The notes beneath the pieces were generated by a model, which searched no databases, was not told the DNA's origin, and was given only the letters and a program-made list of their open reading frames with translations. Source: Rugosibacter sp. (GTDB taxonomy: Bacteria; Pseudomonadota; Gammaproteobacteria; Burkholderiales; Rhodocyclaceae). Taken from it: a DNA stretch of 64,000 bases. Location of the stretch: positions 33,284-97,283 of the forward strand of contig SCUZ01000056.1 in the NCBI GenBank assembly GCA_004322535.1, read 5' to 3'. Shown here piece after piece: positions 25,477 through 31,723 of this stretch. A program made the translations under genes and the position numbers. The first letter of the stretch is position 1. Every line of letters starts with the position of its first letter.

Positions 25477-27279
25477 ATGTCTGACACTGAAAAAACTTCT
25501 AATTTCATCCGGCATATCATCGAGGCCGATCTGGCCGCGGGAAAATATGCCGCGCGCGCCTGGAGCGGCAAGCCCGGCCCTGCCGCGCAACAAAAAGTTC
25601 CCGCAGGGACGCAGAGCGCTGGCGCTGGTGATGCGGCAGCAATTGACGTCGCAAAGATTCGTACCCGCTTTCCGCCGGAGCCCAATGGCTATCTGCATTT
25701 CGGCCACGCCAAATCCATCTGCCTGAATTTTGGTCTGGCACATGACTACGGCGGTGCCTGCCATCTGCGTTTTGATGACACCAATCCGGAGAAAGAAGAA
25801 CAAGAATATGCCGATTCGATTATCGATGCCGTGCGCTGGCTCGGCTTTGACTGGCACTTTGGCGCCGAGAACAACCTCTACCAAGCCTCGAACTATTTTC
25901 ATTGGATGCTGGAATTTGCTGAAAAATTGATCGATGCAGGCTATGCCTATGTCGATTCGCAAACCGCCGAAGAGATGCGCACCCATCGCGGCACGCTGAC
26001 TGAAGCGGGTAAAGAATCACCTTTTCGTAACCGCACAGCCGCCGAGAATCGCGAACTCTTCGCCCGCATGAAGGCGGGTGAATTCGCCGATGGCACGCAT
26101 ATTCTGCGCGCCAAGATCAACATGGCCTCGCCCAACATCAACCTGCGCGACCCCACCATTTATCGCATCCGCCACGCCACGCATCACAACACGGGGGACA
26201 CCTGGTGCATTTATCCGATGTACACCTTTGCCCATCCGATCGAGGATGCGCTGGAAAACATTACGCACTCGATCTGCACATTGGAATTCGAAGATCAGCG
26301 CCCGTTTTATGATTGGTTGCTCGCCCGATTGGCCGAGCTCGGCTGCGTGAATACACCACTACCGCAGCAAATTGAATTCTCTCGGCTGAATCTTTCTTAC
26401 GTTGTGCTCTCGAAGCGCAAACTGATCCAGCTCGTCGAAGAAAAACACGTCAGCGGCTGGGATGACCCACGCCTGCCCACGCTCGTCGGCGCACGCCGAC
26501 GCGGCTATACACCCGAAGCGTTTCGCCACTTCATGGAGATGATTGGCGTCAGCAAATCCGATTCCTGGATCGACTTTGGCGTGTTCGAAGAATGCCAGCG
26601 CCAGCACCTGAACGACATTGCCCCGCGCCGCATTGCCGTACTTGACCCGGTCAGGCTCATCATCGACAACTATCCGGAAGGGCACGAAGAACTCTGTGAA
26701 GCACCCAACCACCCGCAAAAACCCGAGTGGTGCAAGCGCCCGATTCCCTTCTCAAAAGAATTGTGGATAGAGCGCGAAGACTTCATGGAAACACCCACCA
26801 AAGGCTATTTCCGCCTCTTCCCCGGCAACACCGTGCGCCTGCGTTATGGCTTTGTCATCAAGTGCATCGGCTGCGATAAGGATGCCGGCGGCAAAATCAC
26901 CGCTGTGCATTGCGAATACATGCCCGATTCAAAATCAGGAACGCCAGGGTCAGACGCTTACAAGGTCAAGGGCAATATCCACTGGGTATCCGCAGCTCAC
27001 GCCTATGCCGCCGAAGTGCGCCTTTATGATCGCCTGTTTGCCGTTGCAGAACCGGGCGCCGACGGTGGAGATTTCATCCGCGATCTCAACTCGGCTTCGC
27101 GTGTTGTCATTCAGGCACAACTCGAACCGGCATTAAAAAATGCAGCCGCAGAAGAACGCTTTCAGTTCGAGCGCCACGGCTACTTCGTCGCTGATTGCAT
27201 CGATTCAAAATCCGGCACGCCAGTATTCAATCGCACGGTGACACTGAAAGAATCCTGGCATGCAACGACGAAAAAATAA
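25477..27279 (+). CDS. glnS: Glutamine--tRNA ligase GlnRS
   Basis: A 600-residue class I aminoacyl-tRNA synthetase charging tRNA-Gln. The HIGH signature reads HFGH at 74-77 ([15 protein letters not shown]) and the KMSKS counterpart is VLSKR at about 310-314, both typical of GlnRS. It is about 45-50 residues longer than the E. coli enzyme; much of that is a Pro/Ala/Gly/Gln-rich insert at about 26-58, between the conserved [16 protein letters not shown] and [13 protein letters not shown]. The start ATG at 25477 begins [15 protein letters not shown], matching family N-termini. Last chromosomal gene before the mobile element. Confidence 0.96.
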
Positions 27280-27527: not shown

Positions 27528-28775
27528 GTGGGTAGGGGAACGAACAAGCTGACGGACAGAACGGTACGCTCGCTCAAGGCTCCCGGACGCTATGGCGACG
27601 GCCTTGGGTTGTGGTTACAGATCAGCCCGGAAGGTAGCAAGTCCTGGCTATACCGCTACATGCTGAATAGCCAAGCGCGCATGATGGGACTCGGTCGTTA
27701 TCCTGACTTTTCCCTTGAGGAAGCTAGAGAAAAGGCGACGGAATTCCGCAAGCTGCTCAAGGAGGGTAAAGACCCGATCAACGAACGCGATTCCAGAATG
27801 GCTATCGAGCACCTAGCGCGCAAGAAGCTGCTGACATTCGATGAGTGTGCACATGCCTATATTGAGGCAAACCGTGCTGCATGGAAGAATGCCAAGCACG
27901 CCAGCCAGTGGGAAAACACCCTCGACACCTACGCCAGTCCGATCATCGGCAAGCTGCCCATTGCGACGATCGATACCGGCCTGGTGCTGAAGGTGCTCGA
28001 AAAGATATGGATCACGAAGCCAGAAACAGCAAGCCGCCTGCGTGGCCGCCTTGAGGCTGTGCTGGGCTGGGCAACGGTGCGCGGCTACCGCAAGGGCGAC
28101 AATCCCGCCGCCTGGCGCAATCATCTTGACAAGGTGTTGCCGGTTCGCTCTGCCATCAAGCGGGTGCAGAACCATCCCGCCCTGCCCTATGGCGAGATTG
28201 GCGCATTCATTGCCGCCTTGCGCGAGCAGGCCGGAATAGCTTCACGCGCCCTTGAATTCGCCATCCTGACAGCCGCACGAACCGGCGAAGTTATCGGTGC
28301 GACGTGGCAAGAATTCGACCTGAACGCAGGCATCTGGACTATCCCGGATGAGCGCATGAAGGCCAAACGCGAGCATCGCGTCCCGATTTCTGCTCGGGCG
28401 CTGGAAATTGTCAAAGAGCTATTGCCGCTCAAGACCGAGGACAACAGCCCGGTATTCCAAGGAAAGGGCGGCAAGGCGTTTTCCAATGCGGCGATGCTGG
28501 CTGTCCTGAAGCGAATGGGGCGATTCGATCTAACGACTCATGGCTTCCGCTCCACCTTCCGCGACTGGGCAGGCGAGACCACAGCCTACCCACGGGAAGT
28601 GATTGAACACGCCCTGGCGCACCAACTCAAGGACAAAGCCGAAGCCGCCTATGCGCGCGGTACGCTGTTCGACAAGCGCCGCAGACTGATGGTCGATTGG
28701 GCGACCTACTGCAATACGGAGAAGAAGGCAGGAAGGGAAACGGTAGTGCCGTTCCGAAAGGGTAAGACATCGTGA
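27528..28775 (+). CDS. int: P4-type tyrosine site-specific integrase
   Basis: A 415-residue integrase with an N-terminal arm-binding domain of the DUF4102 type (LTDRTVRSLKAPGRYGDGLGLWLQISPEGSKSW), a SAM-like core-binding domain about 110-200 and a C-terminal catalytic domain. Catalytic residues are Arg251 (AARTGE), His338 and Arg341 (HGFR), His365 and the nucleophile Tyr375 (AAYARG), so it looks active. It starts at GTG 27528 behind a G-rich run. Integrases of this type use tRNA 3' ends, in keeping with the tRNA-Ser repeat. The transposon at 28800 begins 24 bp after its stop. Confidence 0.93.
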   Translation: MGRGTNKLTDRTVRSLKAPGRYGDGLGLWLQISPEGSKSWLYRYMLNSQARMMGLGRYPDFSLEEAREKATEFRKLLKEGKDPINERDSRMAIEHLARKKLLTFDECAHAYIEANRAAWKNAKHASQWENTLDTYASPIIGKLPIATIDTGLVLKVLEKIWITKPETASRLRGRLEAVLGWATVRGYRKGDNPAAWRNHLDKVLPVRSAIKRVQNHPALPYGEIGAFIAALREQAGIASRALEFAILTAARTGEVIGATWQEFDLNAGIWTIPDERMKAKREHRVPISARALEIVKELLPLKTEDNSPVFQGKGGKAFSNAAMLAVLKRMGRFDLTTHGFRSTFRDWAGETTAYPREVIEHALAHQLKDKAEAAYARGTLFDKRRRLMVDWATYCNTEKKAGRETVVPFRKGKTS

Positions 28776-28791
28776 CTAATACTTCGTCAAT

Positions 28792-28820
28792 AAATTGCAG
28801 GTAGTGTCCTAATTTGAATT
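28792..28820 (+). repeat. Target duplication and left inverted end of transposon
   Basis: AAATTGCA (28792-28799) is the target duplication; the 21-bp terminal repeat follows directly. The partner is at 31046-31074 in inverted orientation with the same duplication outside. Both matches are perfect by eye. Confidence 0.9.
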
Positions 28821-29042
28821 AGACAGCGCGCGCCTTACATTTCTTGCAAAGGAATGTCGGCTGAGGATCATTTGCTGGCCCTTCTGGATTTCCCAAAATA
28901 AAGCCCGATGGTATTTCAACTACCCGAGTGTTGAATTTTCCATCATGGTGAGGTGGAGTTTCATTTTCTTCTAACTCGACTACCCCAGTTCGTGGCCGTT
29001 CGGGCAAGTTAATTTCTTTGTGAATATTTCGCGCTTCGCCAT
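28819..29042 (-). pseudogene. Small zinc-ribbon protein gene, split by a frameshift
   Basis: A strong ribosome site (GTGGAGG) lies 5 bases before an ATG at 29042, giving MAKREIFTKKLTCPNGHELG and then a stop. One frame over, the reading goes on as GVVELEENETPPHHDGKFNT and ends TFLCKKCKARAV. Joined, they make a protein of about 73 residues with a CPxxH pair and a CxxC pair, a plausible four-ligand zinc ribbon with the ENETPPHH motif that I have seen in small uncharacterised proteobacterial proteins. The ORF track shows only the second half, from a TTG. The break lies near CTGGGGTAG. It may be a true pseudogene, an assembly error, or a frameshifting site. It follows the winged-helix gene by 19 bp. 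Confidence 0.6.
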
Positions 29043-29061
29043 AAAACCTCCACCTAAATTC

Positions 29062-30036
29062 TCAGGCCAAGTCATCGTCCTCATCTGAAAGCACTGACTT
29101 CTGCGCCTCAAGCAACTTAATCAGCTTGCCAATTTCCTTCGGCCCAATATCGCCAGCAATAATCAGGCGATAGTTGGTTTCTTTTGATAAGGGACCACGA
29201 AGCCACTCACGTTCTTGCTTGTCCAAGCCGATCGTTGGCATCTCGACCAACGGAAGAATGGGTGGAGCTTTACTATGGCTAGCAGGCACCCATTTTTCAA
29301 TAACGCTCACTTCATTCATCGGAATTCCAGTTTGGTTACCTTCTATGAATATCCAAGACTCTCCATCGTGCTCCTGAATTTGGCGAACACGAGTTGGAGT
29401 TGCTAGCTGGAGCACCCCGTTGGATTCCCATTGAATAAGGTCACCGATTTCGACTTTAGTCTTAGTATCGGCTGGAGTCTCCTGTTTGCGCTCATCAGTA
29501 GGAGACATACTATCAGATTCTTGTAATTTTGCAAACGAAACAGTGTTCCGTATTTCTCGAATAAAATCGCTCACTACGTTTTCATTGAACTTCCGATCAA
29601 GCACTAGGTAATGCCGCAAATTGGCATCGGAAGGAAGCGTCGGCCATTTCGTCAGAATTTCTTGGTGAATTTTTGGCAATAGCGCCGCGCGCTTTATGGC
29701 CTCATCGCGCTCTTTTGAATCTTGGCGTTCGTCTAGGATGATTCGCAGTGCCAGATCGGTTAGTTTCACCTTCCTCTGGTCACCAGACCCCTCATCTTCC
29801 ATAAGCCCGAAGGCAAGAAGGGCCGCAATAGCCTGCTTACCCCCACTACTAGCATAAGAGTAACCCCAATGTTCTGCCGCAACCTTAACGTTAGCGGCGG
29901 CTCGTTTCTCAGCACCATAAAACTGCCTGGCCCGTTCGATCGCCGACTTTAGGTCAATAGATGGATACGCGGGGCTCCGATGAACCGCCCCGCGTTTGCC
30001 TTTACCGTCGTTGCTTTGAGTATCTTGCTCAGCCAT
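29062..30036 (-). CDS. Unrecognised protein with winged-helix-like N-terminus (transposon passenger)
   Basis: No family name is assigned. The 324-residue protein begins with a low-complexity tail, then a helical region (KSAIERARQFYGAEKRAAANVKVAAEHWGYS) and what looks like a winged helix (QAIAALLAFGLMEDEGSGDQRKVKLTDLALRIILD). A charged linker about 175-195 leads to a small beta-rich domain (VEIGDLIQWESNGVLQLATPTRVRQI) and a C-terminal helix with LIIAGDIGPKEIGKLIKLLEAQ. It may bind DNA and act as a regulator, but that is inference. Both it and the zinc-ribbon gene downstream lie inside the inverted repeats. Start ATG 30036 follows AAGGAGTTGTC. Codon use and GC look lower than in the core genes. 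Confidence 0.75.
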   Translation of the reverse strand: MAEQDTQSNDGKGKRGAVHRSPAYPSIDLKSAIERARQFYGAEKRAAANVKVAAEHWGYSYASSGGKQAIAALLAFGLMEDEGSGDQRKVKLTDLALRIILDERQDSKERDEAIKRAALLPKIHQEILTKWPTLPSDANLRHYLVLDRKFNENVVSDFIREIRNTVSFAKLQESDSMSPTDERKQETPADTKTKVEIGDLIQWESNGVLQLATPTRVRQIQEHDGESWIFIEGNQTGIPMNEVSVIEKWVPASHSKAPPILPLVEMPTIGLDKQEREWLRGPLSKETNYRLIIAGDIGPKEIGKLIKLLEAQKSVLSDEDDDLA

Positions 30037-30154
30037 GACAACTCCTTAGATGGGGATGCTGTAGTCATACTAAGATATGTCTCAGATAAAGTCAAGCGCT
30101 AAAGAGACCCAATAGAGACATTGCCATCAAATTTAATCTCCAATATGCGCTAAC

Positions 30155-30187
30155 AAGTCTTGACAAAGACTTTGTCCCCATTATAAT
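30155..30187 (+). promoter_or_regulatory. Strong sigma-70 promoter with dyad over the -35 box
   Basis: TTGACA at 30160-30165 and TATAAT at 30182-30187 are both perfect, 16 bp apart. A dyad AAGTCTT-GACA-AAGACTT (30155-30172) covers the -35 box and looks like an operator. The expected start near 30194 falls on a strong ribosome site (AAGGAGGT, 30195-30202) before an ATG at 30211, and the transcript would run through the two hairpins and the tRNA-like gene. Divergent from the winged-helix gene. Confidence 0.8.
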
Positions 30188-30210
30188 TGGCGGCAAGGAG
30201 GTGGTTATCG

Positions 30211-30339
30211 ATGAGAAGAGAGTTTGCCCCCATGAGCCATGCCTGCCGACGTGGGGGCGGAAAAGAAAAGGCCTGCATTGGCGTCCTTCCTAGGGGCATG
30301 ACCAATGCAGGCCGTGGTGGGCGCTGCTGTACCGCTTTT
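30211..30339 (+). ncRNA. Candidate structured leader RNA with two strong hairpins
   Basis: Two long stems lie in a row: GCCCCCA (30226-30232) with TGGGGGC (30252-30258), and GGCCTGCATTGG (30270-30281) with CCAATGCAGGCC (30302-30313), a perfect 12-bp stem with a 20-base loop. They lie between a consensus promoter and a tRNA-like gene. The same stretch is an open frame from the ATG at 30211 behind AAGGAGGT (MRREFAPMSHACRRGGGKEK...), and that frame carries on through the tRNA to 30588, which is unlikely for a protein. It could be a regulatory RNA, or a short leader peptide within one. A comparison with phage P4 immunity RNA comes to mind but is unproven. Confidence 0.4.
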
Positions 30340-30412
30340 GCCCCCGTAGCTCAGTTGGAAGAGCGCAGGTTTCGTAGCCCGGAGGTCGCCAGTTCGAATC
30401 TGGCCGGGGGAG
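30340..30412 (+). tRNA. tRNA-Thr(CGT)-like gene, degenerate
   Basis: The 73 bases have full tRNA spacing: acceptor GCCCCCG, D arm GCTCAGTTGGAAGAGC, anticodon loop TTCGTAG (anticodon CGT, with U33 and A37), five-base variable loop, T arm GCCAG-TTCGAAT-CTGGC and acceptor CGGGGGA. Faults are a G-A mismatch at 1-72 and two mispairs in the anticodon stem (28-42, 31-39). No CCA is encoded. Such flaws suggest a mobile-element tRNA that is decaying, or a tRNA-like RNA with another use. It lies inside the transposon, which is unusual cargo. Confidence 0.65.
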
Positions 30413-30549
30413 CTTTCTATTTCAGTAGGACTACCGAGTGCGTCAACACCCGGAAGCCCGCAACCGACACCCGTATGAGGGGTAACGATTGCACCGGTAA
30501 AGACAATCGAATCATAGCCTTCATACGGGCCTTTGTAAAGGAGCCCGCT

Positions 30550-31047
30550 GTGAATACGTTGAGTCAGATAAGCAAATTCAAGTGTTGAACTGCTTGGTGG
30601 AAGGCGTTTCCATTCGTTCGATTGAGCGCATGACAGGAATCCACCGCGACACCATTATTCGGCTGATGCTCCGGGCCGCTTCAATTTTCTGCCCGTGTAA
30701 TGGATGAGAAGTTCCAAAACCTTCACTGTGAGGAAGTCGAAGTTGACGAATTGTGGGGATTTGTTGCCAAAAAGCAAAAGCACGTCAGCAGTACCGATGA
30801 TGCCCGCGAGGTCGGCGATCAGTACATCTTCGTTGCCCTCGATGCCAATACAAAGCTAGTGCCGACCTTCCTAGTAGGTAAGCGTAGCGCTGAAAATGCC
30901 GTGGAGCTGATGCGTGACTTACAGTACCGCGTGGCGAATCGTCCTACGATTACGACTGACGGCTTTCGGCCATACATTGAAGCCGAAAAAGAAGTGCTAG
31001 AAATGTTCAAAGCTACTTTTCCGGTTGCGGTCAAGAAAAGTCCTTAA
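30550..31047 (+). pseudogene. IS1-type transposase, broken and C-terminally truncated
   Basis: Three frames together give an IS1-like DDE transposase: a start-like GTG followed by NTLSQISKF, then LNCLVEGVSIRSIERMTGIHRDT (helix-turn-helix part), then MDEKFQNLHCEEVEVDELWGFVAKKQKHV and DQYIFVALDANTKLVPTFLVG with TTDGFRPYIEA. The first and second catalytic acidic regions are seen; the final part (normally with a YVERQN-type motif and the last acidic residue) is missing because the frame stops at 31047 as the right terminal repeat begins. At least two frameshifts are present. It cannot be active as it stands. Confidence 0.85.
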
Positions 31048-31074
31048 TTCAAATTAGGACACTACCAAATTGCA
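31046..31074 (-). repeat. Right inverted end and target duplication of transposon
   Basis: Perfect inverted copy of 28800-28820 followed by AAATTGCA (31067-31074). The duplication sits two bases before the TTGACT -35 box of the toxin-antitoxin operon, so the transposon entered just upstream of that promoter without destroying it. Confidence 0.9.
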
Positions 31075-31103: not shown

Positions 31104-31127
31104 GTATGTTCATTGATTGCTAATTTC

Positions 31128-31406
31128 ATGATTAAAAACTTCACTCACAAGGGGCTTGAACGGTTCTTCAAGAAGGGCGATCACCGAGGCATCATTGCCA
31201 GGAGTGAGGCTCGAATCGAACGTATTCTGGATCGGCTGAATGCAGTCGTGAAACCTGAAGACATGAACATTCCCGGCTACAAGTTCCATGGCCTGGGCGG
31301 TAACCGTAAAGGCACCTATGCTGTGACAGTAACCGGAAACTGGCGTATTACTTTTGAATTCGATGGCGAAGACGCCATCAATGTGGACATGGAGGATTAT
31401 CACTGA
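31128..31406 (+). CDS. higB: HigB-type (RelE fold) mRNA-cleaving toxin
   Basis: A 92-residue toxin from the ATG at 31128 (MIKNFTHKGLERFFKKGDHRGI); the ORF track adds five residues from a TTG. The RelE/plasmid-maintenance-killer fold shows in GYKFHGLGGNRKGTYAVTVTGNWRITFEFDGEDAINVDMEDYH, where WRITFEF is the conserved core strand. Such toxins cut mRNA on the ribosome. The toxin comes first and its stop overlaps the antitoxin start (TGATG), the typical HigBA order. It may keep the integrated element in the cell. Confidence 0.92.
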   Translation: MIKNFTHKGLERFFKKGDHRGIIARSEARIERILDRLNAVVKPEDMNIPGYKFHGLGGNRKGTYAVTVTGNWRITFEFDGEDAINVDMEDYH

Positions 31407-31723
31407 TGAAGAGCCTGCGAGACCCGAATCGCCGCCCGACGCACCCTGGTGCAATTCTGCGCGAGGATGTGTTACCTGCCCTTGCAATGACACAAACAGA
31501 GCTTGCTGACCGGCTGAATATCTCCCGCCTGTCGGTGTCACAGCTTCTGCATGAAAAACGCAGCATGACGCCCGAGATGGCCGCGCGCGTCGGCAAGTTT
31601 CTCAACACGACGCCCGAGAGCTGGCTGCGGATGCAAGAGGCCGTCGATTTGTGGGAAGTACAACAGCACCCGGAAAAGCTGGCCGGGATCAAGCCAATCA
31701 AGGCGGAGCTTATCGCCGCATAG
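31406..31723 (+). CDS. higA: HigA-type XRE antitoxin
   Basis: A 105-residue antitoxin. RRPTHPGAILREDVLPALAMTQTELADRLNISRLSVSQLLHEKRSMTPEMAARVGKFLNTTPESWLRMQ is the characteristic HigA helix-turn-helix (VapI-like). It neutralises HigB and represses the operon. Translation is coupled to higB by the one-base overlap. Confidence 0.93.
   Translation: MKSLRDPNRRPTHPGAILREDVLPALAMTQTELADRLNISRLSVSQLLHEKRSMTPEMAARVGKFLNTTPESWLRMQEAVDLWEVQQHPEKLAGIKPIKAELIAA

Follow-up and report, generated by a model that had tools for sequence, protein, structure and literature searches.

The element at positions 28800–31066 of the window (the whole 64,000-nucleotide stretch of DNA analysed here) is a decayed, 2,267-bp member of a group of IS1-family passenger transposons in which homologs of anti-phage defence genes often fill the cargo slot. 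It carries a winged-helix gene and, divergent to it, a structured small RNA with a Shine–Dalgarno (SD) sequence, an AUG followed by tandem AGR codons, two hairpins (A and B) and a pseudoknot. Gene and RNA form a conserved pair, and in transposon-borne copies a tRNA-like gene often trails this module. The window's module is without a match in the libraries searched. Its best explanation, which we hold tentatively and which reads function from anatomy, is an addiction or defence cassette of a repressor and a tRNA-sequestering RNA, spread by the IS1-family transposon. The features of the element are as follows.

28792–28799, no strand: left copy of the target-site duplication AAATTGCA (sequence; empty site in G008/L356)
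28800–28821, plus: left terminal inverted repeat GGTAGTGTCCTAATTTGAATTA, 22 nt, 100% complementary to the right end
28819–29042, minus: small zinc-ribbon-like gene (CPNGH ... CKKC), split by a frameshift into two overlapping frames
29062–30036, minus: winged-helix cargo protein, 324 aa, motif RSPxYPxI (AlphaFold2 model, homologs)
30160–30187, plus: consensus sigma-70 promoter of the divergent RNA, TTGACA-16-TATAAT (12/12 matches)
30162–30176, no strand: 15-bp palindrome GACAAAGACTTTGTC, candidate operator over the -35 box (sequence)
30195–30201, plus: Shine–Dalgarno AAGGAGG (sequence; motif scan)
30211–30219, plus: start of the mini-ORF, ATG AGA AGA, with tandem rare Arg codons (motif scan)
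30226–30258, plus: hairpin A, GCCCCC...GGGGGC (folds)
30241–30247, plus: loop of hairpin A, GCCTGCC, pairing with 30316–30322
30270–30313, plus: hairpin B, 12-bp perfect stem (inverted repeat I5, fold)
30316–30322, plus: tail GGTGGGC, 3' pseudoknot partner of the hairpin-A loop (pairing test)
30340–30413, plus: tRNA-like gene derived from tRNA-Thr(CGT), degenerate anticodon stem (ARAGORN; Rfam RF00005, 46.1 bits)
30470–30529, plus: hairpin C, 3' of the tRNA-like gene (inverted repeat I4; z = -2.97)
30550–31044, plus: IS1-family transposase pseudogene, two frameshifts, C-terminal third missing
31045–31066, minus: right terminal inverted repeat (inverted-repeat search)
31067–31074, no strand: right copy of AAATTGCA (sequence; empty site in G008/L356)

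The insertion is real. In a congeneric genome (G008, locus L356) the two flanks meet at a single copy of AAATTGCA and no other DNA separates them, which shows that the 2,267 bp were inserted together. This empty site adds to the perfect 8-bp duplication of the preliminary description, which is exact on both sides; the perfect inverted ends that it gave as 21 bp are indeed perfect and are one base pair longer, 22 bp. Searches of the window's genome found neither further copies of the 22-bp ends, making the element single-copy there, nor another transposase of the IS1-family passenger group. The element is flanked by a tyrosine integrase gene of prophage type (27528–28775) and a higBA toxin–antitoxin pair (31113–31723), and a glutamine tRNA-synthetase-like gene (25477–27279) adjoins.

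The transposase is broken, as had been noted from the sequence. The missing C-terminal third takes in the region of the catalytic Glu, and what is left matches NF033558 at 9.1e-8, under the whole-protein cut-off. With two frameshifts and this loss, the element cannot move itself. Most relatives have an intact transposase of their own, which implies that the non-autonomy of the window's element is local decay. Movement in trans can be raised only as a possibility, since no second transposase of the group was found in the genome.

To place the element we gathered 152 non-redundant transposases from viral contigs, plasmids and genomes. All searches covered sampled genomes; several of the contigs are metagenomic, and provirus flanks may be among the viral ones. 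Similar inverted ends and a duplication delimited 92 elements; the boundaries of the other 60 were not set. The delimited elements have a median length of 3.1 kb (n = 92), and 85 of the 92 have exact 8-bp duplications, so that they and the window's element show the 8–9-bp target duplication typical of IS1. The exact 22-bp end is present in 13 contigs, whose phyla include Planctomycetes, Verrucomicrobia and Proteobacteria among others. Other elements exist that have identical or similar ends, lie between different flanks and encode an intact transposase. The element was rightly described as a non-autonomous IS1-type cargo transposon from a family bearing a tRNA/RNA module. This module is, however, just one of many kinds of cargo in the family, and copies of it are also found away from these transposons. 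The expectation that IS1 elements rarely carry passengers fails here, where passengers are the rule and just 3 of the 92 delimited elements are shorter than 1.3 kb.

Two intact relatives, L038 and L050, score above the cut-off of PF03400, the Pfam domain of IS1 transposases, and plasmid records annotate intact relatives as IS1 family transposase. Membership of IS1595 was ruled out, as the IS1 models score better. In the intact relatives the transposase is one ORF of about 275–300 aa, not two ORFs, insA and insB, joined by -1 frameshifting; a single-ORF branch of the IS1 family is known. L038 and L166 are intact transporter IS (tIS), with cargo and transposase within one pair of ends and duplications. 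The group shares with the IS1 family and tIS an IS1-type DDE transposase, GGTAGTG ends, 8-bp duplications and passengers between the ends. It differs from them in its size (2.3–5.6 kb), in having large, variable cargo as a rule, in its spread across phyla and in its tRNA-like genes, and the window's copy differs further in its dead transposase. A search of one literature library found no paper describing this group. In most elements a small basic protein (KGGKARAxxLSxEQRxEIAxxAAxxRW) is encoded just inside the left end, for example at L166:3368–3601; it has no Pfam match and is possibly an accessory transposition or core gene.

The cargo of the sister elements suggests, from sequence matches, that many members of the group transport defence or toxin–antitoxin genes. 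Roughly one in three of the largest cargo genes matches a PADLOC defence model (RmrA, PD-Lambda-2). Among the 80 largest cargo proteins, 13–14 match RmrA and 13 match PD-Lambda-2_B, while 20–21 contain an XRE helix-turn-helix and/or an IrrE domain. The RmrA and PD-Lambda-2_B models share this XRE plus IrrE architecture, which makes the exact defence fraction uncertain; because the models include general architectures of this kind, part of the PADLOC matches may be something other than genuine defence systems. Further sister cargo comprises restriction-modification, Abi_2, SocA-Panacea, STAND and AAA proteins, along with Abi/PD-T4-5 matches. Matches to defence models are frequent in the cargo of the delimited elements L055–L306, many of them in viral contigs, and an IS1-family element in one viral contig (L186:1898–4025) carries a DNA methylase together with a probable endonuclease. 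RmrA and PD-Lambda-2 fill the cargo slot of sister elements, whereas the window's cargo matches neither.

Of the two protein genes in the window's cargo, the zinc-ribbon-like gene is split by a frameshift, as first described, and has no Pfam match above cut-off. The winged-helix gene is intact, and the early assignment of its product agrees with the AlphaFold2 model: residues 21–170 have a mean pLDDT of about 87–96 per block, and a confident N-terminal part with the element order of a winged helix is followed by a helical domain and a small beta domain. The protein is probably a repressor. It matches no family above cut-off in Pfam, NCBIfam, PADLOC or PHROGs, and thus no toxin–antitoxin or defence family described there. 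Comparison of the model with the PDB gave no confident match (best E 7e-3), a search of viral sequences with the protein found nothing, and searches of plasmid and phage DNA with the element turned up tRNA similarity only. Homologs of the protein lie inside the delimited elements L024, L038, L166, L291 and L303, and others (L170–L174) have no IS1 ends or transposase nearby. The divergent winged-helix/RNA pair recurs in distant bacteria.

The promoter and hairpins of the divergent RNA bear out the preliminary description. The promoter matches the consensus at all 12 positions and is overlapped by GACAAAGACTTTGTC, the operator-like dyad, and the two strong hairpins are real, as an inverted-repeat search and folding indicate. 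No shared operator was established. The mini-ORF of the window has no early stop, its frame being open to 30588. Its tandem AGR start was spotted first by eye and afterwards scanned for with a fixed pattern. SD-ATG-AGR-AGR occurs in 9 of 18 homolog divergent regions and in 46 of 11990 control windows (0.38%), giving a binomial P of 8e-18, an upper estimate of the strength because the choice of the 18 regions was not blind to the discovery of the motif. Within the set of delimited elements the pattern is found in five only, all with the winged-helix gene. The AGR pair is missing from half of the 18 regions, mostly those of more distant homologs, and L297 has a single AGA. AGR codons make up 3–11% of the Arg codons in these contigs. 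Beside the closer homologs, the mini-ORFs start as follows.

Window: ATG AGA AGA
L166: ATG GCT AGG AGG
L038: ATG AAT AAA AGG AGA
L291: ATG CGT AGA AGA
L024: ATG AGA AGA AGG
L170: ATG ATT CTT AGG AGG
L174: ATG TTC AGG AGG
L303: ATG GCA AGA AGA
L347: ATG AGA AGA

The mini-ORF may encode a functional peptide, as Arg-rich and NxK segments recur. The pseudoknot between the hairpin-A loop and the sequence 3' of hairpin B is supported by a pairing test in which native beats swapped pairing across 11 homologs (permutation P 0.003).

A short ORF followed by hairpins and an RNA gene resembles a regulatory leader. Ribosomes slowed at the AGR codons or the pseudoknot would then sense the supply of Arg-tRNA and control read-through towards the tRNA-like gene or other DNA downstream, and the winged-helix protein would be an ordinary autoregulator. 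The conservation of hairpin and pseudoknot is compatible with this, as is the fact that some mini-ORFs extend through hairpin A into hairpin B. In L170 and L174, however, the RNA ends shortly past the hairpins, at sequences that resemble terminators, and there is no gene for it to regulate; from its spacing hairpin A appears too distant to be disrupted by a ribosome stalled at codon 3. We consider a leader somewhat unlikely.

The tRNA-like gene of the window was correctly recognised as a degenerate tRNA-Thr-like gene, with support from both ARAGORN and Rfam. Its nearest tRNAs are Thr, and it shares its body and CGT anticodon with tRNA-Thr(CGT) of Burkholderiales, from which it differs in two anticodon-stem mismatches (28:42 and 31:39), G1 opposite A72 and no encoded CCA. 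It thus falls short of a complete cloverleaf with a paired anticodon stem, whereas relatives such as that of L297 are intact. A role as a normal decoding tRNA was ruled out, since the copy is degenerate and the genome has a normal Thr-CGT. Across the group, 9 of 150 loci have an ARAGORN tRNA on the strand of the transposase, no more than 450 bp upstream of it, and none has one on the opposite strand; judged from 1,069 control windows, 0.77 would be expected per strand (Fisher P 1.6e-6). These genes sit 106–163 bp upstream of the transposase and differ in body and anticodon. A separate scan for T-arm plus acceptor gave 9/150 against 1/150, with controls at about 1%. This bias in position and strand rules out chance matches. 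A tRNA-like stretch seen by eye in L347 was confirmed by neither ARAGORN nor Rfam and is excluded from the counts.

Winged-helix modules borne on transposons have a tRNA in the window, L166, L291, L297 and L024, the last being tRNA-Sec-like (40.7 bits, E 2e-5, just below the gathering score of 47). L291 (3817–3914, minus) and L297 (oriented 409–495) each have, inside or beside an IS1-family element, a tRNA-Ser with an intact fold and a UUA anticodon, predicted to read the stop codon UAA; this anticodon also occurs in L235, on a Leu-like body, and in L186. In L291 and L297 the tRNA is divergent to the winged-helix gene and situated away from the transposase, so the idea that the transposase alone carries a tRNA in its leader was dropped. 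Tandem tRNA-like genes occupy the same place upstream of related transposases at L167:2685–2838 and L168:4340–4488, and their differing acceptor stems stay paired. At L244:4113–4661 and L168:3757–4335 a different helix-turn-helix (HTH)-like ORF immediately precedes a tRNA-like gene and is read in the same direction, as if there were a second type of HTH plus tRNA module.

Such tRNAs could themselves be the functional payload, with altered anticodons (UAA-reading Ser/Leu, ACU, GCU and UGC types) acting as suppressors, decoys or replacements in phage–host conflict and the leader merely driving them. Their recurrence at one position and strand, confirmed by the T-arm scan, and the UUA anticodons of four elements, two of them with an intact tRNA-Ser fold, point in this direction. 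Against it, only about 7% of elements have a tRNA, the genes are scattered over the transposase tree, the window's copy is degenerate, and homologs of the module outside transposons have none. The genes of L291, L297, L235 and L186 contain no in-frame TAA requiring a UUA tRNA; genes dependent on it were ruled out, as the transposase and cargo frames are open without TAA suppression. A tRNA payload seems to us improbable. That the element is an ordinary decayed passenger transposon, with a generic winged-helix regulator, a captured fragment of a chromosomal tRNA and leader codons arisen by chance, would fit its single copy, two pseudogenes and degenerate tRNA, but the conserved mini-ORF start (P 8e-18) and pseudoknot, the intact winged-helix gene and the recurrence of the pair in distant bacteria already disfavour this reading and make it very improbable.

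The preferred reading, a cassette of repressor and tRNA-sequestering RNA, draws on CreT, the tRNA-sequestering RNA toxin of the CRISPR-regulated CreTA system (PMC8501985). CreT depends on a strong SD, an AUG, a pair of adjacent AGA codons and a stem-loop, and additional tRNA-Arg relieves its effect; rare codons opening a longer ORF might work too, as the CreT paper notes (PMC8501985). The RNA of the window has these parts in the same order: a strong SD, an AUG, a tandem of rare AGR codons that opens the ORF or lies close to its start, and a stem-loop downstream. From this we infer a tRNA-sequestering RNA guarded by a repressor, in an addiction or defence cassette. Unlike CreT, whose partner is the CRISPR-derived CreA RNA and which in a CreTA module lies next to a type I Cascade, it is paired with a divergent winged-helix protein, and no pair of repeats like that of a creA is evident in the region. 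It also differs in its longer ORF, two hairpins with a pseudoknot and tRNA-like tail.

In the proposed mechanism, translation would start efficiently on the mini-ORF, and the rare Arg codons at its beginning would tie up tRNA-Arg(UCU/CCU), so that growth would stop. The winged-helix protein would hold the divergent promoter silent, and the RNA would be freed once the element is lost or the protein is interfered with, resulting in transposon addiction or abortive defence. The tRNA-like tail probably helps to process or stabilise the RNA or, as a guess, adds a second translational effect. More tentatively still, the same anatomy may represent an undescribed mobile class of addiction or defence systems, composed of a winged-helix repressor, a structured RNA whose mini-ORF with tandem rare codons starves the cell of tRNA-Arg and, in transposon copies, a tRNA that sometimes reads UAA, spread by defence-carrying IS1-family transposons.

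If this is true, tRNA-sequestering RNA toxins occur beyond CRISPR loci, and a version guarded by a protein travels on transposons. The analysis also points to natural UAA-reading tRNAs as mobile cargo, and to a large group of small IS1-family transposons with anti-phage genes, in whose cargo slot further systems not yet described could be sought.
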